Below are positions 5,129-23,250 of a DNA stretch of 38,170 bases, in pieces. The number at the start of each line of letters is the position of its first letter. Within the stretch, counting starts at the first letter, position 1. The notes under the pieces are model-generated. The model ran no database searches, was not told the origin of the DNA, and saw only the letters and a program-made list of their open reading frames with translations. The stretch comes from Candidatus Peregrinibacteria bacterium RIFOXYB2_FULL_33_20 (GTDB lineage Bacteria; Patescibacteriota; Gracilibacteria; UBA1369; GWF2-33-10): contig MFXK01000027.1 of the NCBI GenBank assembly GCA_001788835.1, positions 1-38,170 of the forward strand, in the 5' to 3' direction. The translations under genes and the position numbers were made by a program.

Positions 5129-7489
5129 TTAAGCTGTGGCCTGATCATGATTCTGTTTTTCCAGAATGCATAGCATTTCATTGATAGGATTGCTTTCGCC
5201 AATGGAGAAATGCCATGGCTCGTTGCGAATATTGGCTTGAAATCCGTATTTTAACAAACAAATTTTCGCTAATTCGTAATTTTCACCTAATCCTGCGTGA
5301 TTGATATCCAAGGCTTGGCCGATTTCGTGGAAGGAATGTCCAGTTGGAGCTGCCAGGCTAGGATTCATTTTACTTTGTTGTTCATTGGTCCTAAAACTTG
5401 AGTTAACGATAATATGTTTTCCAGTTTGTTTGAAAAAATCATTATCAGCTAATTGTAAAGCTAGTAAAACAGATTTTTTGGCTATGACTTTTACCCCACC
5501 GATTTCTTTTGTTTCGATTGGTTCTTTGAGAATTCTTGATTTATCGATGTTGGTAAAATTTGCACCGGTCCATTCTGGATCTTGCAGATCGTCAATTTCT
5601 GAAATTTTTGAAGTATCAATTGTGAAAATTGAACCATTCACCATGGCATTTACATCTTCACCAATGAATATTTTTTTACCATTTTTTAATTGATGGGCGC
5701 CACCTTGGATCTTGTCATGCACTAAAGTAGTAAAATCATTTTGAGATAATGAATTGTCAGCGATTAAGGTCAAAACATCAGCTTTTTTGGCACCTATTGT
5801 CTTTTTTCCCAGCAATTCCAGGTATCCAATATAAGCAATTAAGTCTTTGTCTTCGGCATTTAAACAAGTTTCGTTTGGCAAATTTCCGCCAAAAGTTTTT
5901 TCATAATTTTTCATACCCAAGTCAAGACATTGTTGGTATTTGGATTCAGTGCTACCTGTATCATCGCCATCATCATGTAACTGGAAAATGGTTTTACTCC
6001 AGCCACCAGCAGGATCATGGTTGGCAATGCCAAACCTTAAATTACCCTCGTGGCTGCCAATCGCAATAACAGTTTTGCAAATTCTACCGTTGGCATGATG
6101 ATCTTCATCCAACCTGATTAATAATTCCGCACCGTAGGAATTACCGAATATACTTCTGGTGACAGCATAAGTTTCTTGAGAACTTAGAGCTGATAATGTT
6201 TTTCGTTTAATACCTCGTAAAATGGCTAAATCATTTTCATTGCTAGCTTGCTTAATGGCTAAGGTTGATGGTTGTAATTCCCCAGCTCTATCTAAGTTAA
6301 ATCTATCAGTCCTTTTGCCTTTATTCTGGAAATTTTTTTTAAATTGTTTTATGGTATTAGTAATTTGTTTTGTGGCGGTGTCTTGGTTTTTAATTAAATG
6401 TTTTTGCCTATCCGCCATCCCATCATATCGTTTTAATATTTTTGCTTGAACATTTGGGGCTGATTGGCAGTTAGAAAGGAAATAAATGGCAAAAATTGGA
6501 TTAATATAACCACTCTCTTTTTCAAAAGCATCAAGAGTTTTCTGTCCTTCTGGAAGGCTAATTCCATAATTTTCAAGAAGTTTATGGTCCCAACCTTCTA
6601 TGTGTTCAAATTTGTCCTGGATAATTTGAATTTTTCGAATTAACAGATAAAGTCTGGCTTCGAAACCAATTTTTTCTTGATTATCAATTAATCCGGCGAA
6701 AGGCTGAGTTGGATCTTTGGTGTTTTCAATATAAAGTGAAAGTAAGAAATGCGGATCAATATTATTTAAATAGGCGGTTTCAAAAAGTTTGGTAATGAGT
6801 TTTTCTTGAGCTGATTTTTCGCCTGCCATTTCTGTGTCCAAGTCGGGCTGTATTGTGATGTCTTTGAGTGTGGTGCGACTCCTGGAGTCTGGCTTTTTAA
6901 GATTTTGCATTAATTGGGTGGCTGAATTTTGAGCTTTATTTTTGAGGCCTTGGATTCGAGCTGTAATGCTGGGTTCTTCTTTCTCAAAAATTATTTTATA
7001 TCCACTTAATATTTTTATATATCCATGTTCGTCGAAAAAAGAACCAGTGATTCCTTGTCTGAAACCTTTTCTGGTGCGACCCGTTTTGTCAATGACGGTG
7101 ACTTCTCTGACATCAGGTTGAAGAGTGCATAAGCCAATTTTTTTTTCAGCAAACTTATTTCCGGCAAAATCTACTTCATATACCTTTCTATTATCAACAG
7201 TATTTATTTCGGTGGCATAAACATCGAACAGTAATCCTGGCTGTAGATTGTTTAATTTAAGAAGCAAGTCAGGAGGAAGATTACCTTTGATAGCTTCTTT
7301 ATTTTCTAAAACAGTTTTTATCAAAAGTTGTTTTTGTTCCGTTGAAGTTAAGCGTTGATAAGTGTCCCGTTCTAGCTGATCAAGTTTTTCTTCTACGCCA
7401 AGAACCTGCTGTAAAGCCTCTCTAATGTTATCCTGAGATGGTTCTTTATTGTCATTTTTTGGTTCTTGTAGTTGTTCTGTGGGAGCCAT
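5129..7489 (-). CDS. Large protein with C-terminal VanY/M15B D-Ala-D-Ala carboxypeptidase domain
   Basis: The last ~95 residues of this 786-residue protein form a recognisable M15B (VanY-type) zinc peptidase core. It has the SxHxxGxAxD motif at 719-728 (zinc ligands H721 and D728), the catalytic glutamate and third zinc ligand in EPWHF (E757, H760), and an upstream SSFRT strand near 697-701. M15B enzymes trim the terminal D-Ala from peptidoglycan stem peptides or cut cross-links. The ~600 residues before it are not recognised. An N-terminal ~150-residue part includes a beta-rich segment with GSFFDEHGYIKI. The middle is helical and low in recognisable motifs. No signal peptide is evident, so how it would reach the wall is unclear. 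It is the middle gene of a three-gene minus-strand cluster. Confidence 0.8.
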   Translation of the reverse strand: MAPTEQLQEPKNDNKEPSQDNIREALQQVLGVEEKLDQLERDTYQRLTSTEQKQLLIKTVLENKEAIKGNLPPDLLLKLNNLQPGLLFDVYATEINTVDNRKVYEVDFAGNKFAEKKIGLCTLQPDVREVTVIDKTGRTRKGFRQGITGSFFDEHGYIKILSGYKIIFEKEEPSITARIQGLKNKAQNSATQLMQNLKKPDSRSRTTLKDITIQPDLDTEMAGEKSAQEKLITKLFETAYLNNIDPHFLLSLYIENTKDPTQPFAGLIDNQEKIGFEARLYLLIRKIQIIQDKFEHIEGWDHKLLENYGISLPEGQKTLDAFEKESGYINPIFAIYFLSNCQSAPNVQAKILKRYDGMADRQKHLIKNQDTATKQITNTIKQFKKNFQNKGKRTDRFNLDRAGELQPSTLAIKQASNENDLAILRGIKRKTLSALSSQETYAVTRSIFGNSYGAELLIRLDEDHHANGRICKTVIAIGSHEGNLRFGIANHDPAGGWSKTIFQLHDDGDDTGSTESKYQQCLDLGMKNYEKTFGGNLPNETCLNAEDKDLIAYIGYLELLGKKTIGAKKADVLTLIADNSLSQNDFTTLVHDKIQGGAHQLKNGKKIFIGEDVNAMVNGSIFTIDTSKISEIDDLQDPEWTGANFTNIDKSRILKEPIETKEIGGVKVIAKKSVLLALQLADNDFFKQTGKHIIVNSSFRTNEQQSKMNPSLAAPTGHSFHEIGQALDINHAGLGENYELAKICLLKYGFQANIRNEPWHFSIGESNPINEMLCILEKQNHDQATA

Positions 7490-7557
7490 AGGGAAAGTGT
7501 GAAAAGGGGAGGTTTTGCGATATGCGATTTATGCACAATGCAAGTCGAATATCATTT

Positions 7558-8046
7558 CTATATTACATAAACATTGCCGCATTCTTGTTCAACCCTTGAT
7601 TCAATTTGTCTTAATTCGGTAATCAAGTGTTTCATCTGGTAAGTCATAGAGGAATCTGATTTCCATAAATTATGGATTTCTCGTAAGCGGAACATGATGA
7701 CTTGGGTGTTCATATCCACTTTTACAGTTTGCTGAGGATTGAGTTTTTCATAAATTTCTAAATTTAATAAAGTATTTTGATTCATGAGATTGATTTTTTT
7801 GCTTTCAACCATTTTCATGATAATTCCCAAATATTGCTGGTCAGTCAGATCTCCTCCGTCTGGATCAAGAGGCGGAGTATTCATTTTTTGCTGTAAATTA
7901 TCACTTATGGGAGCGTCATTGGTAGCTTCATCATATAAATCATGAAGCGGGGTATAAGTTTTATCATAGACTCTGATTTGATCTGAATTTAAATTCTGCA
8001 AATTATTTTGTCTGATTTGTGAATTTTGAATTTGTTGAGGAAGCAT
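7558..8046 (-). CDS. Hypothetical small protein, first gene of the M15 cluster (162 aa)
   Basis: The family is not recognised. The N-terminus is rich in Gln and Asn. Residues ~55-70 form a Pro/Asp/Gly turn (PPLDPDGGDL), and the rest is predicted helical with Met, Leu and charged residues. There is no signal peptide or membrane helix. It is the promoter-proximal gene of the minus-strand cluster, 68 bases before the VanY-domain gene, and the same order suggests a shared transcript. A partner or adaptor role for the two large proteins downstream is plausible but unsupported by any motif. Confidence 0.65.
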   Translation of the reverse strand: MLPQQIQNSQIRQNNLQNLNSDQIRVYDKTYTPLHDLYDEATNDAPISDNLQQKMNTPPLDPDGGDLTDQQYLGIIMKMVESKKINLMNQNTLLNLEIYEKLNPQQTVKVDMNTQVIMFRLREIHNLWKSDSSMTYQMKHLITELRQIESRVEQECGNVYVI

Positions 8047-17150: not shown

Positions 17151-18212
17151 ATGCTAGAAAAACTGCAAAAAATCGAAACTGAATTTGAGGAGATTGAAAA
17201 ACAAATCTGTGATCCAGTGGTCATAAACAATCAGTCTCAATACATGAAACTCATGAAAAGGCGCAAAGAAACTGAAAAATTAGTGGCTTTGTTTCGAAAT
17301 TTGAAGAAAATTGATAAGCAAATCAAAGAAGCGCAGGAAATTTTGGCTACGGAAAAAGATAAGGAATTGATTGAATTGGCAAGATCAGAATTAGGAGAAG
17401 CCAAGCATAAAAAAGAACAGCTGGATGAACAGCTCAAGATTGAACTTTTGCCAAAAGATCCTGATGATGGGAAAAATTGTATTATTGAAATGAGGCCAGG
17501 CACAGGCGGTGATGAGTCTTGTTTGTTTACCGAGGAATTGAGTCGATGTTATGTGAAGTTTTTGGAGACTAAGAGATATAAAGTAGAGATAATTAACAGA
17601 ACAGAAGCTGATCATGGCTTGAAAGAATTTATATTTCGAGTAGTGGGCGAGGGCGCTTACGGATTGATGAAGTATGAAGGGGGAGTGCATCGTGTGCAGA
17701 GAGTGCCGGTAACGGAAAGTCAGGGCCGAATTCATACTTCCGCAATATCAGTGGTGGTGATGCCGGAAGTAGAAGAAGTGGATATCAAAATTGAAGAAAA
17801 GGATTTGCGTATTGATGTTTTCCGATCAGGCGGTCATGGCGGACAATCAGTCAATACCACTGATTCTGCAGTGCGCGTGACTCATTTGCCGAGTGGCTTG
17901 GTAGTTATTTGTCAGGATGAGAAATCCCAGTTAAAGAATAAAGCCAAGGCTTTGTCAGTGTTAAGAGCTAGGCTTTATGCCATTGAACAGGAAAAAAGAC
18001 AAAAAGAGTTAGGGGAAATTCGTTTGTCAATTGGTAATGGAGACCGCAGTGACAAGATTCGCACTTATAATTTTCCGCAAGATAGAGTTACTGATCATAG
18101 AATTCACAAAAGCTGGAATAATATTTTTGGAGTAATGGATGGGAACATTCAGGATATCGTTGATTCATTGCAAATTGAAGAACAAGCGAAGAAACTGGCG
18201 GCGAATATATAG
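17151..18212 (+). CDS. prfA: Peptide chain release factor 1
   Basis: RF1 reads UAA and UAG stop codons and triggers peptide release on the ribosome. At 353 residues it is full length. The GGQ catalytic motif lies at 230-232 within [17 protein letters not shown]. The stop-codon-reading tripeptide is PVT at 186-188 (PxT is RF1-type; RF2 has SPF). An N-terminal coiled-coil domain occupies about 1-105. It follows prmC, which modifies Q232 in this pair. The intergenic region has a possible promoter (TTGTCA at 17067 with an A/T-rich -10 near 17089), so it may be transcribed both from there and by read-through. Confidence 0.97.
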
Positions 18213-18293
18213 ATGACTGTGAATTTTTGATTGTCAGTTATGAACTAGATCAGCTTATTTGATTTGCAGAAAAAATGGCGAAACTATAAAATT

Positions 18294-18322
18294 TTGACAA
18301 AAAATATTTTAAATGTTTTAAT
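18294..18322 (+). promoter_or_regulatory. Promoter of the radical SAM operon
   Basis: TTGACA at 18294-18299 and TTTAAT at 18317-18322 are separated by 17 bases, giving a leader of about 37 bases before the ATG at 18366. A second TTGACT at 18324 has only a weak -10 partner. Confidence 0.5.
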
Positions 18323-18365
18323 GTTGACTTAAATTAGCTGGCTAATTTTTGTAAAAATTATATAA

Positions 18366-19301
18366 ATGAAATTTCCACCCTCTTTTTCATGGCATGAAAC
18401 AAGTCAGGAAGATGGCAAAAAATATGATCCAGAACTTGTCTTTCAGGCAGGGCTTAAGCATCATGGCATATCAAATACAGCCTTTCCCATTGCTCATAGG
18501 AGTACTATGCAGCCTTATAAAGTCCCTAATGACGATATTGAATCTGTTGCTGTTCAAGTATGGGACGGCGTTTCAGAAATGTCTTTATATGTACATATAC
18601 CTTTTTGTGAACAAAGATGTCGGTTTTGTGAATATACAGTGGTAAAAAATGATAGATCGTATCCACAAGAGACAATGTATTTTGATGCTTTGGGAAGAGA
18701 ATTTGTCATGTATGGGAATCTAATAGTTCCAAAAGATAAAAAAATAGTTGGTTTTGATATTGGAGGAGGAACTCCATCGTTCGTAGACGTTAGACATATA
18801 AAACAAGTTATTGATTCTGCTGTTGGATGTTTTGGGCTATCTAGTGATATTGATATTTCCATTGAAACCACTCCAAAAATTGCGGCCTTAGATTTTAAAA
18901 AAATGCAAGAGTTACATGATATGGGAATAAGACGTATTAGCATGGGGATTCAAACGGTTAATCCAGCTTTATTAGCGGATGTGGGACGTATAGCAACTTC
19001 AGCACAGTGGAATATTGAGGCTGCGGAACATATTTATAGAGCGGGATTTGAAAGATTTAATGTTGATTTGATGTATGGTTTTGCTAGACAGAGCTTGGAA
19101 AGCGTAGAAGCCACCATTCGTCATGCTATTGCCTTAGATCCGCACTATATTACTCTTTATAGAATGAGATATAAAGGCACACTTTTGAAAAGTGATGCTG
19201 AAAATGTAAGTTTAGAGGATGTAAATAGACAGGTTACTTTGATGAAAACTATATTAAAAGAGGGGGGGGTATACAGGCAAATATGGAAAAAACACTTTTA
19301 G
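18366..19301 (+). CDS. HemN-like radical SAM protein, N-terminal part (frameshifted)
   Basis: This carries the radical SAM core of the HemN/HemW superfamily: HIPFCEQRCRFCEY with the 4Fe-4S cysteines C81, C85 and C88, GGGTPS (about 133-138), an IETTP strand, GIRRISMGIQT and FNVDLMYG. These enzymes cleave SAM to a 5'-deoxyadenosyl radical; HemN itself decarboxylates coproporphyrinogen III. I see no heme genes nearby, so a different substrate is likely. The reading frame ends at 19301, shortly after a run of eight G (19262-19269). Removing one G joins it without a stop to the 19306-19773 frame, giving a 468-residue protein of the usual HemN size. The break is either a real or switchable frameshift or a sequencing error. 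It heads an operon with the next genes. Confidence 0.85.
   Translation: MKFPPSFSWHETSQEDGKKYDPELVFQAGLKHHGISNTAFPIAHRSTMQPYKVPNDDIESVAVQVWDGVSEMSLYVHIPFCEQRCRFCEYTVVKNDRSYPQETMYFDALGREFVMYGNLIVPKDKKIVGFDIGGGTPSFVDVRHIKQVIDSAVGCFGLSSDIDISIETTPKIAALDFKKMQELHDMGIRRISMGIQTVNPALLADVGRIATSAQWNIEAAEHIYRAGFERFNVDLMYGFARQSLESVEATIRHAIALDPHYITLYRMRYKGTLLKSDAENVSLEDVNRQVTLMKTILKEGGVYRQIWKKHF
19262..19269 (+). repeat. G8 homopolymer at the HemN-like frameshift
   Basis: Eight consecutive G in an otherwise A/T-rich gene sit exactly where the HemN-like frame breaks. Seven G would give an uninterrupted frame reading GGYTGKYGKNTFSRVEGEN across the junction. Such tracts are prone to slippage and also to sequencing error. 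Confidence 0.8.
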
Positions 19302-19305
19302 TAGA

Positions 19306-19773
19306 GTGGAAGGTGAAAATGGCTTAAGCAATTATTTAAATGCACGTGTTGTTGATGGAATCCCATATTTAGGACTTGGTTTAGGGGCTCAAACATTTTC
19401 GCTGAGATCACTTTCCTATAATGTCGGTGCTGATAGTAAAGAATTAAAAAGTTATGTTGATAAAAATCAACATGGAGTGTTGCCAATTCAGGATATACAT
19501 CATCTTTCAAAAGAAGCTGCTATGGCGAAAATGATTTCAGTAGCTTTTTATTCAGGCGGAATTAATCTGGAAAGTTTTAGAAGAAATTTTGGGATTACAT
19601 TTCAGGAAGCTTTTTCAGAAGAGGTTAAATATGTAATTGAAAATGAATTAATGGAGTTTACGTTAGGGGATCTACAATTAACTGAAAAAGGTGAGCAATA
19701 TTATAATGGAATAATTGCTCTTTTTTATTCAGGTTCTGTAAAAAAACATCTCATAGAATTAAATCACAAATAA
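19306..19773 (+). CDS. HemN-like radical SAM protein, C-terminal part
   Basis: This frame continues the gene that starts at 18366, in the next frame after the G8 tract. It holds the HemN C-terminal region, including GIPYLGLGLGAQTFS, which matches the YLGLGPGAHS phrase of the family, and a helical winged domain to the end (SVAFYSGGINLESFRRNFG, then LQLTEKGEQYYNG). If translated on its own it could only start at the GTG at 19306, with no Shine-Dalgarno sequence. It would lack the iron-sulfur cluster and SAM site and would be non-functional. It is best read as the second half of one gene. The stop is 2 bases before the next radical SAM gene, which suggests translational coupling. Confidence 0.8.
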   Translation: MEGENGLSNYLNARVVDGIPYLGLGLGAQTFSLRSLSYNVGADSKELKSYVDKNQHGVLPIQDIHHLSKEAAMAKMISVAFYSGGINLESFRRNFGITFQEAFSEEVKYVIENELMEFTLGDLQLTEKGEQYYNGIIALFYSGSVKKHLIELNHK

Positions 19774-19775
19774 CT

Positions 19776-20543
19776 ATGGAAAATGAAAGATATGATTTTG
19801 GTAACATTCTTTTTTCTGGACCATGTAATGCAAAATGCCCAGAATGTATCGGGAAATTACTGGAAGAGACAAAAAAGCAACTAAATAATTTGCAAATCTA
19901 TCCATTATTGAATATAGAGCCTTTTGTAGCACTTCTAAAAAAACAGGGTGTACGAGAAGTGATTTTTACTGGAACAAACACCGATCCTCAATTATATGGA
20001 TATGAGGAACAGCTTATTGCTGATCTTCGTCGGGAATTGGGAGATAATGTTTTGTTATCTTTACATACCAATGGCAGATTAGCAGTAAAAAGAAGAAGCA
20101 CTTTTAATCAATATGATAAAGCAACTATTTCCATCCCATCGTTTACTCCTGAAGTTTATAAGGCCATGATGGGAGTGTCTCCAAACTTTGACTTGTCTCA
20201 GATATTAAATTTAGCAAAAATGCCTATAAAAATTTCTAGATTAACAAGTTTAACTAATAGAGAAGATTGTGCGGCTTTTTTGAGACATTGTTTGACTTTG
20301 GGTATAAAAAGAGTGGCATTTAGAAAACTGTTTGGTGAAGTGCTTGAATGGGAGGATTTAGTCGATATCAATGGACTTGGTATGCAAAAGATAAGAAATT
20401 TTCATGGCAATTCTGTATATAACTACAAAGACATGGAAGTAACTTTATGGGATTTTTCAGCTACTGGCTGCAGATCTATCAGCTTATTTAGTGATGGTCA
20501 TATTAGTGATCATTATTTATTAATTGATGCCATGAAACAATAA
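19776..20543 (+). CDS. Radical SAM protein (255 aa)
   Basis: The N-terminal GPCNAKCPEC holds a canonical CxxxCxxC cluster motif (C17, C21, C24). It is followed by a beta-alpha pattern with VREVIFTGTNTDPQLYGY (about 56-73) and LLSLHTNGRL, as expected for a short radical SAM barrel. No SPASM or B12-binding domain is present, and no more specific family is obvious. The later TGCRSISLFSDG (about 231-242) contains a lone cysteine. It lies 2 bases after the HemN-like gene and 38 bases before the phosphatase start, so the three are very likely one transcript. The product could modify a small molecule, nucleoside or peptide; no precursor peptide gene is visible beside it. Confidence 0.85.
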   Translation: MENERYDFGNILFSGPCNAKCPECIGKLLEETKKQLNNLQIYPLLNIEPFVALLKKQGVREVIFTGTNTDPQLYGYEEQLIADLRRELGDNVLLSLHTNGRLAVKRRSTFNQYDKATISIPSFTPEVYKAMMGVSPNFDLSQILNLAKMPIKISRLTSLTNREDCAAFLRHCLTLGIKRVAFRKLFGEVLEWEDLVDINGLGMQKIRNFHGNSVYNYKDMEVTLWDFSATGCRSISLFSDGHISDHYLLIDAMKQ

Positions 20544-20581
20544 TTTAAAAAATTAAAACTTTGGAAAAAAGGATTAACACC

Positions 20582-21145
20582 ATGATGCTAAATAACGATT
20601 ACTATGCAATAAGACACGCTTTAGCCAAAAACAGGGAAGATCGTGTGTTATCTTCTACTGAAAAAACAGGGATATCTCACCCTTTAACACCTGAAGGAAG
20701 AGTTCAAATGCATAAAGTTGCAAAAGAGAGTGGTATAGAATTTGATCGTATTATTACTTCTTCTATTTTGAGAACAAGACAATCAGCAGAAATTATTCAA
20801 GAATACTGTGGGGGGATTATTATGACGGATGAGCGATTAATAGAGCATCAGGTAGGTGCTTTTGATGGCAGATCAATCGATGAATGGGCCAATTATTGGA
20901 AAGAAAATGATGTCAGATATTGCGCCTCAATACAAGTTGAAACATGGACAGCCGTTCGCGAAAGAGTGGGGGCTTTATTAATAGAGTCCAATTTTCTTTA
21001 TAAGGGTGAAAATATACTTTTTGTTTCTCACGAACTGCCGATAAGCATGTTACTTGATTTTATTAACGGGATTAAGCGAGAAACACATCCCAGAATATAT
21101 ATACCTTATAGCCAATTTATCCATTTAAATTCTGTTAGTCCTTGA
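20582..21145 (+). CDS. Histidine phosphatase (phosphoglycerate mutase-like)
   Basis: This is a member of the histidine phosphatase superfamily, which transfers phosphate through an active-site histidine. The N-terminal RHG motif reads IRHALA, with the Arg-His pair kept and Gly replaced by Ala. TSSILRTRQSAEII supplies the second conserved arginine, and SHELPI supplies the second catalytic histidine. The length (187 residues) fits the cobC/SixA-like branch. I prefer the ATG at 20582 because an AAAGGA ribosome binding site sits 8 bases upstream; an in-frame TTG at 20561 would add seven residues. It closes the radical SAM operon and may remove phosphate from the pathway's product or a precursor. 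The 3' end converges on nadB, with no clear terminator. Confidence 0.88.
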   Translation: MMLNNDYYAIRHALAKNREDRVLSSTEKTGISHPLTPEGRVQMHKVAKESGIEFDRIITSSILRTRQSAEIIQEYCGGIIMTDERLIEHQVGAFDGRSIDEWANYWKENDVRYCASIQVETWTAVRERVGALLIESNFLYKGENILFVSHELPISMLLDFINGIKRETHPRIYIPYSQFIHLNSVSP

Positions 21146-21181
21146 TGTTATGGATATCTATTTTCAATTATGAGTCTATTG

Positions 21182-22678
21182 CTAGTGGTCTTTTATATAA
21201 TGCCCTCCCAGACTGATAGGACGAGCCATGGCTGATTTGGTGATTAATTCAGCGGTGATTAATAAATTTTCGGTTTCCAGTAGCATTTCATTTAAACCCT
21301 TAGTGTTGGCGGGCAGATTGGATTTAAGCTGATTTATTGATTCTAGAGCTTCTGCCATTTCTGCCATTTTTCTTAGGATGCCGACCTTTTCCCACATTAA
21401 ATTTTTGAGGTTTTTTTGCATAGCTATTAGCTTGTTTTCTAATTTTTTATTTAGTTTAAGGTATTCTGATTTATTTTTTTTGATTTGGATTTTTGTAATG
21501 TTAGTTCTATCAGCATTTTTTTGGGCTAAATTTTTAATGATAGCATCGGAAAATACCAAGGCTTCCACTAATGAATTTGACGCTAGTCTATTGGCCCCAT
21601 GTACGCCAGTGCAAGCTACTTCGCCAAAAGCATATAAATTTTTAACGCCGGTTTCACTCTTTAAATTTACTTTAATTCCGCCACAAGAATAATGAGCCGC
21701 TGGAGTAATAGGAATTAAATCTTTGGTTAAATCAAAGCCATAGTCTTTGAGCCAGTCATAGATTTTTGGAAAGCGCAGTTTTACTTCATTGGGATCTTTG
21801 TGAGTAATATCCAAGTAAATAGGGCTTTTTTTGCTTTCTTCATAAATATTGATAGCTACAATATCTCGAGGTGCTAATTCCGCTAATTTATGTCTTTTCA
21901 ACATAAATCTCTCTCCTTTATTGTTTTTTAAATAAGCGCCTTCTCCACGCACTGCTTCGGAAATCAAGAATTTCGCTTCACCCCAATAATTAAAAGCTGT
22001 CGGATGGAACTGAATAAATTCAAGATCTTGAAATTTTAGTCCTGCTCTATAGCCCATAGCTAAACCATCGCCGGTGGAGATTTTGGGATTAGTGGTGTGC
22101 AGATAAACTTGGCCGCAGCCGCCTGTAGCTAATATCGTATAGTCCGCGTATAAGTCCATGATTTTTTGATTTTTGATGGCGGTAGCGCCTAAGCAGGATT
22201 TTTGGTCATTATTCAAAATCAGTTCGCAGGCAAAACAATTTTCCCAGATTTTAATATTTTTATTTTTTTTCACATTGGCTAATAAGGCTAATTCTATTTC
22301 CTGTCCAGTATAATCTCCCACAAAGGCAATCCTTCTCTCGCTGTGTCCGCCTTCTCTGGTTAATAACAATTCGCCGTCATGGCTGGCAAATTTAACGCCA
22401 TAATTAATGAGGTTTTTAATGGCTGATGGCGCATTTTTCACCATGAATTTCACCGCTTTTTGGTCATTGTGGTAGGAACCGGCGATCAGGGTATCTTTTA
22501 TGTGTTTATCAAAGCTATCATATTTATCCAAGACGCCGGCAATGCCTCCTTGCGCATAATTGGTGCTGGTATCAATGGCATGTTTTTTGGTAATTATTAA
22601 AACCTGTCCTAATTTAGAGGCATTTAAAGCGAAATTCAAACCAGCGATTCCGGAGCCGATAACTAAGAAAGTGGGCAT
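21182..22678 (-). CDS. nadB: L-aspartate oxidase NadB
   Basis: NadB is the FAD enzyme that oxidises L-aspartate to iminoaspartate, the first step of de novo NAD synthesis. The N-terminal dinucleotide-binding motif is VIGSGIAGLNFA (G8, G10, G13). STNYAQGGIAGVLD, typical of NadB, follows. HPTAFNYWGEAKFLISEAVRGEGAYL and HYSCGGIKVN match the active-site and FAD-contact region. The C-terminal helical domain is present. The length of 498 is slightly short but complete. No nadA or nadC lies in this window. Fumarate reductase subunits share the fold, but the motif spellings and length favour NadB. The gene is the last of the minus-strand set 26985-21182. Confidence 0.92.
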   Translation of the reverse strand: MPTFLVIGSGIAGLNFALNASKLGQVLIITKKHAIDTSTNYAQGGIAGVLDKYDSFDKHIKDTLIAGSYHNDQKAVKFMVKNAPSAIKNLINYGVKFASHDGELLLTREGGHSERRIAFVGDYTGQEIELALLANVKKNKNIKIWENCFACELILNNDQKSCLGATAIKNQKIMDLYADYTILATGGCGQVYLHTTNPKISTGDGLAMGYRAGLKFQDLEFIQFHPTAFNYWGEAKFLISEAVRGEGAYLKNNKGERFMLKRHKLAELAPRDIVAINIYEESKKSPIYLDITHKDPNEVKLRFPKIYDWLKDYGFDLTKDLIPITPAAHYSCGGIKVNLKSETGVKNLYAFGEVACTGVHGANRLASNSLVEALVFSDAIIKNLAQKNADRTNITKIQIKKNKSEYLKLNKKLENKLIAMQKNLKNLMWEKVGILRKMAEMAEALESINQLKSNLPANTKGLNEMLLETENLLITAELITKSAMARPISLGGHYIKDH

Positions 22679-22698: not shown

Positions 22699-23250
22699 CT
22701 AATTCTCAATAGTTTGAAACCAGTCATCAAATCTAGTTTTTTTGAGTTTTTTAAATAAAGCTTTGCCGGTTTTGGTTTGCAGGTATTTTTCAGTATTCGT
22801 CAGCCATTTCATACAAGTTTTGTAGCCAAGATCATAATATTCTTTTGCCTGGAGGCAGGTTTCAAGATGATCTGCGTCTCTGGCACATTTGCTTTCTAAT
22901 GTTTTTTGTTCTTCAAATTCATGGAAAAGTTTATAAAAAGTTTGGCCAGTATTTGTTGGTAGACCTTTAATCTGATCGCGAAAAGCCTGATTTTCTGCCA
23001 AAGCAGGTTTAAGGTATTTTTTATTGATATTATTAAAATCACCAATGCGAATTTCGGCGTTATCATGAATTATAATCATCATGGCTGTTTTATAGGCATC
23101 AGCTTTTTCTTCACTGGCAATTACAAAAGCGATTTGGCTGGCTCTGGCAATATGTTCCGCTAGACTATCAGGATTCTGGACACCTGCGAACATCGTACCG
23201 CAGTGTTTTATTTTTTTTAACATGCCCAATTCAAAGAAAAAATTTAGCAT
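22699..23250 (-). CDS. HD-domain phosphohydrolase (YfbR/HDDC2-like)
   Basis: The HD superfamily metal site is complete: H33 (in SLAEH), H62-D63 (IIHDNAEIRIGDF, with the family's extra E66 and D71) and D127 (ARDADHLE). This pattern matches the YfbR/HDDC2 group of 5'-deoxynucleotidases, which remove phosphate from deoxynucleoside monophosphates. The substrate is not certain from sequence. The first nine residues are hydrophobic and could be an over-extension, because M10 is an alternative start. The gene lies 20 bases upstream of nadB on the same strand, so the two are probably co-transcribed. A strong terminator separates it from secDF. Confidence 0.85.
   Translation of the reverse strand: MLNFFFELGMLKKIKHCGTMFAGVQNPDSLAEHIARASQIAFVIASEEKADAYKTAMMIIIHDNAEIRIGDFNNINKKYLKPALAENQAFRDQIKGLPTNTGQTFYKLFHEFEEQKTLESKCARDADHLETCLQAKEYYDLGYKTCMKWLTNTEKYLQTKTGKALFKKLKKTRFDDWFQTIEN

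Follow-up and report, generated by a model that had tools for sequence, protein, structure and literature searches.

Gene content of the prfA-nadB interval

The window analyzed here is a 38,170-nucleotide stretch of Candidatus Peregrinibacteria bacterium RIFOXYB2_FULL_33_20. Between prfA and nadB it holds three tandem plus-strand genes, which code for a HemN-like radical SAM protein, a second, small radical SAM protein (hereafter rSAM2) and a histidine phosphatase (Table 1). The preliminary description of this DNA had presented them as a trio with a promoter of its own. The families and the start of rSAM2 2 bases past the stop of the HemN-like gene were borne out, but the HemN-like gene proved to be frameshifted into two ORFs, and the promoter did not hold up, with 8 promoter-like sites in the scan against 14.9 expected by chance. 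No Rfam element was found within the cassette.

Table 1. Positions of the genes and other features at the locus
Feature	Position	Strand	Basis or remark
prfA	17151-18212		5' neighbor of the trio
Inserted segment between prfA and nadB, holding all three genes	18213-21181		Synteny at nadB loci of relatives
HemN-like radical SAM gene, frameshifted	18366-19773	+	ORFs 18366-19301 and 19306-19773
G8 run, +1 frameshift site in the HemN-like gene	19262-19269	+	Frame of the intact orthologue is the 7-G frame
rSAM2, 255-aa radical SAM protein	19776-20543	+	CX3CX2C; AlphaFold model with radical SAM fold
Histidine phosphatase (branch 1)	20561-21145	+	PF00300 1.5e-23
nadB, L-aspartate oxidase, convergent neighbor	21182-22678	-	TIGR00551 526 bits, above cut-off

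We found that prfA was the direct or nearly direct convergent neighbor of nadB at 11 of the 15 nadB loci of relatives, mostly without anything between, and that none of the 15 held any of the three genes. The ~3-kb segment has therefore been inserted into what was an old junction, and nadB is, judging from synteny, an old resident outside the cassette. Because its adjacency is ancestral, nadB gives no evidence for an NAD-related function of the inserted genes. In base composition and codon usage, the trio resembled its surroundings and was not foreign, and the insertion edges showed no target-site duplication exceeding chance length. A YfbR-like HD-domain nucleotidase adjoins nadB at 22699-23250; it was not found in the 1.5-kb nadB flanks of the 15 relatives.

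The rSAM2 and phosphatase genes are intact. The phosphatase scored 83.9 bits with PF00300, above cut-off, and has the features of branch 1, with the catalytic His18 (in RHA rather than RHG) and His156 both present. The ATG at 20582, which has AGGA just upstream, is the likelier start. In many relatives (e.g. G236:C2:222429-222953), a histidine phosphatase domain was seen inside open frames of ~1150-1200 aa, which we take to be probable fusions with some large housekeeping protein, for example a tRNA synthetase.

The split of the HemN-like gene is caused by one extra G in the G8 run, the sole G or C run of at least 7 in the window; with 7 Gs instead of 8, a single frame of 468 aa results. The orthologue in G467 (L110:7686-9101, 471 aa) is intact across this stretch and shows 47% identity over its length, so that in this assembly the split truly departs from the ancestral frame. 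Seven other genes of the window contain A/T homopolymers of 8-9 and keep unbroken reading frames, making a general indel error unlikely. Either an error confined to this site or a phase-variable tract is possible, and the HemN-like copy in the window may be inactive. With this frameshift, a working pathway in this genome, as suggested in the preliminary description, is not supported.

Family placement of the two radical SAM proteins

The HemN-like protein shows the hallmarks of the radical SAM superfamily, namely CX3CX2C at residues 81-88, a GGGTPS motif and a HemN-type C-terminal domain (PF04055 2.3e-14, above cut-off; HemN_C in the second half 5e-5, at 23.7 bits just under the cut-off of 24). 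Its domain architecture is shared with HemW, HemN and HutW, and in the repaired reading it scored 154.5 bits with HemN (TIGR00538) and 145 bits with HemW (TIGR00539), which are the points in favor of a housekeeping enzyme of these families. However, the respective cut-offs of 325 and 205.4 were missed, SNYLNA stands in the aligned region in place of the heme motif HNxxY, and the gene is sporadic in its presence, inserted and paired with rSAM2, so that a housekeeping HemW or HemN is highly improbable. Because all NCBIfam cut-offs were missed, HNxxY was absent and no other HemN-type protein was found in the genome, we consider that the HemN-like protein is not heme machinery and is, as far as its sequence tells, a distinct subfamily. 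The subfamily has its own N-terminal region of ~70 residues, common to the orthologues in G467 and G548. HemN-type matches in four other genomes (G014, G075, G129 and G061) were HemW-like with unrelated neighbors and were set aside. The preliminary description had taken placement in housekeeping families such as HemW as a point against its proposal; by family-model scores, neither radical protein falls there. The best-scoring NCBIfam model was STM4012 (NF006067, 174.6 bits), which raised the alternative that the locus encodes a pathway like STM4011-STM4014, with the HemN-like protein as STM4012, rSAM2 as STM4011 and an accompanying hydrolase. The layouts are indeed alike, each with a HemN-type gene followed directly by a second small radical SAM gene and with a hydrolase nearby. 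Nevertheless, the score does not reach half of the required 380 bits, rSAM2 resembles STM4011 in nothing but the cysteine motif, and the hydrolase families differ. Membership in STM4012 was therefore rejected, and the pathway as a whole is very unlikely.

rSAM2 (PF04055 1e-4) likewise has the superfamily features of CX3CX2C and a partial TIM barrel. The cluster cysteines C17, C21 and C24 are invariant in 18 homologues, the usual GGEP is replaced by TGTNTDP, and the family alignment has no second conserved cysteine set. A search of the family profile against PDB returned viperin first (5e-8), then MoaA (4e-6). Structure prediction, which the preliminary description had named as a check, gave a radical SAM fold for rSAM2 of the window (AlphaFold, pLDDT 80.8); a second predicted structure had a pLDDT of 83.7. 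Matches to radical SAM structures reached Z up to 18.0 (rmsd 3.3, 243 aligned), the Z value of GDGT-MAS, with MoaA at Z 17.7 (rmsd 3.4, 240 aligned) and viperin at Z 14.9 (rmsd 3.3, 216 aligned). By profile and fold, then, the closest solved structures are those of the viperin and MoaA clade, and viperin is also of similar size with a single CX3CX2C cluster motif. On the other hand, MoaA has second cluster cysteines that rSAM2 does not have, identities are only 13-17%, and curated cut-offs were not reached either for viperin (NF038283: 13.8 bits for rSAM2 and up to 24.2 for relatives, cut-off 180) or for MoaA (TIGR02666: 22.9 bits, cut-off 284). Viperin and MoaA are nucleotide enzymes, and nucleotide substrates are plausible for rSAM2, but fold likeness at this level of identity does not fix the substrate.

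Distribution and genomic neighborhoods

Genome searches covered this phylum, and the profile search covered 288 genomes of the class. Among the latter, rSAM2 was found only in the genome of the window and in G467, a genome of the same class in which TGA codes for Gly. The two rSAM2 proteins are ~40% identical, and in G467 the intact HemN-like gene overlaps or abuts rSAM2 downstream (L110). The preliminary description had looked to conservation of the trio in other genomes; the full trio was found in no other genome searched, and the phosphatase was absent from beside the G467 pair, from G402 and from the phage loci described below. Across these loci, the conserved unit is the pair of HemN-like protein and rSAM2, not the trio.

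Further members of the HemN-like subfamily, distinct from HemW, were found in G548, G654 and G647. Five loci of the subfamily are thus known, of which two are broken (that of the window and that of G647, where residues 115-297 are missing in frame from the copy at L163:8797-9636) and one is cut by a contig end. G548 has the HemN-like protein without rSAM2, and G402 has an rSAM2 relative (36% identity) with no HemN-like protein found in that genome; the two proteins are therefore not strictly interdependent. A search of the 59 nearest genomes found no rSAM2 apart from that of the window's own genome, and tblastn against phage and plasmid records gave no match. Three candidates were rejected, one from Staphylococcus cohnii (L010), a methyltransferase with eight residues in common, and two weak radical SAM matches that were generic (L013 and L014). 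A further relative (L012; 28% identity, E 7e-5) is doubtful.

Several of these bacterial loci lie beside NAD genes. In G548, the HemN-like gene is just upstream, on the same strand, of genes for nicotinamidase, nicotinate phosphoribosyltransferase (NAPRT), NadE, NAD kinase and two NMNAT-Nudix proteins. In G654, a same-strand gene for an NrtR-type regulator (NrtR_WHD 6.8e-23) lies 97 bp downstream. Similarly, a nicotinamidase gene is located 1.7 kb upstream of the truncated G647 copy on the same strand; the protein scored 104.8 bits, under the cut-off of 174, with the usual motifs present. The rSAM2 relative of G402 adjoins NrtR. No NAD genes were found near the pair in G467. A binomial estimate for three of four HemN-like loci beside NAD genes was ~0.0005, a crude value given that the background rate was assumed. 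Other gene arrangements were also observed. Flanking the HemN-like gene of G548 on its other side, near the NAD cluster, are a 306-aa radical SAM gene on the opposite strand and a protein of 341 aa that is nicotinamidase-like by eye and was matched by no Pfam or NCBIfam model (L132:1022-1942 and 6541-7566). In G245 (L016:2155-4615), a row of genes codes for an NrtR-type regulator, a kinase-like protein, a radical SAM protein weakly similar to viperin and a protein resembling dCTP deaminase.

rSAM2 also falls in a conserved protein family of large phages, represented on ~20 distinct contigs of up to 456 kb and having ~33% identity to the protein of the window. Its signature, WFGNIHLSGPCNRxCYFCIGQ...TGTNTDPLLY, is almost invariant, and no name for the family was found in PHROGs or NCBIfam. 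NAMPT or NMNAT genes are adjacent to the family gene in 3 of 20 distinct contigs: in L083 and L084 it abuts NMNAT-Nudix and NAMPT, and in L082 NAMPT is 1.6 kb away, the distances on the three contigs being 0-1.7 kb. Genes of the NAMPT or NMNAT-Nudix type occur within 10 kb in 6 of the 20, and the remaining 14 have no NAD gene within that distance. Among 100 phage neighbors, no Pfam families were commoner than NAMPT/NAPRTase, and the binomial estimate for 3 of 20 contigs was ~0.007, again crude because of an assumed background rate. Jumbo phages are known to carry the NAD synthesis genes NAMPT and NMNAT (PMC7824862), and it is exactly these that adjoin the family gene in two contigs, although that paper mentions no radical SAM partner and does not contain the word 'radical'. 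On one phage contig (L104:10001-13310), the family gene is followed by two radical SAM genes of another type (300 and 266 aa) within 3.3 kb.

A possible role in NAD metabolism

We tentatively propose that the pair acts in NAD metabolism, a reading that we rate at somewhat below an even chance. The link to NAD rests on gene neighborhood and is moderately supported; neighborhood is not function, and our confidence in any given reaction is much lower than in the association itself. The preliminary description had pictured two radical enzymes and a phosphatase acting on a nucleotide or cofactor. The enzyme part gains from the retention of the pair in G467, from the NAD gene neighbors and from the viperin and MoaA relatives, while the phosphatase drops out of the conserved unit.

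The same relatives suggest an alternative, in which nucleotide chemistry of the viperin kind takes place outside NAD metabolism: rSAM2 would make a modified nucleoside triphosphate or nucleoside, the HemN-like protein and the phosphatase would tailor it, and the product would have an antiviral or antibiotic use. Viperin is the best PDB profile match of the family, the G402 relative weakly matches prokaryotic viperin models (6e-7), the family is rich in phages, and two radical enzymes with a phosphatase are reminiscent of oxetane nucleoside pathways. Yet viperin scores are all far under cut-off (at best 24 of 180 bits), a nucleotide kinase is absent beside rSAM2 in the window, and the cofactor genes found beside both families are NAD genes rather than nucleotide kinases; we regard this alternative as unlikely. 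A slightly larger, still low probability is given to the view that the cassette of this genome is dead, a remnant that no longer has a function. In its favor are the HemN-like frameshift, the loss of an internal part from the G647 copy and the lack of relatives in the 59 nearest genomes. Against it stand the intact rSAM2 and phosphatase genes of normal codon use, and the G8 run could itself reflect faulty sequencing or act as a phase-variable switch.

In the proposed reading, the cassette is a horizontally moved unit with the HemN-like enzyme and the small viperin/MoaA-like rSAM2 as its conserved core. Each enzyme would cleave SAM to form a 5'-deoxyadenosyl radical, and the two would act in sequence on a nicotinamide- or nicotinate-containing nucleotide or on an NAD breakdown by-product, a modification that would feed or protect NAD salvage. 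The product may be a variant cofactor, a metabolite that has been repaired or NAD in a protected form. The phosphatase, as a local addition, would take a phosphate off the nucleotide and may finish the product in this genome, where, with the HemN-like gene frameshifted, the pathway may be off or degenerate. To our knowledge, neither the biosynthesis nor the salvage of NAD has an established radical SAM enzyme, and our literature search found no paper linking radical SAM enzymes to NrtR, to NAMPT or, for Gracilibacteria, to NAD. It is conceivable, if improbable in this specific form, that the pair represents an undescribed radical NAD route, forming a modified nicotinamide nucleotide or repairing NAD breakdown products, and that large phages combine the rSAM2 half with genes for rebuilding NAD as one of their means against NAD-depleting defenses. 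As both halves of the cassette independently point to NAD genes, in reduced bacteria and in large phages, the pair is a concrete, testable candidate for such a role, and a conserved but unnamed family of phage proteins finds a context in the cassette.
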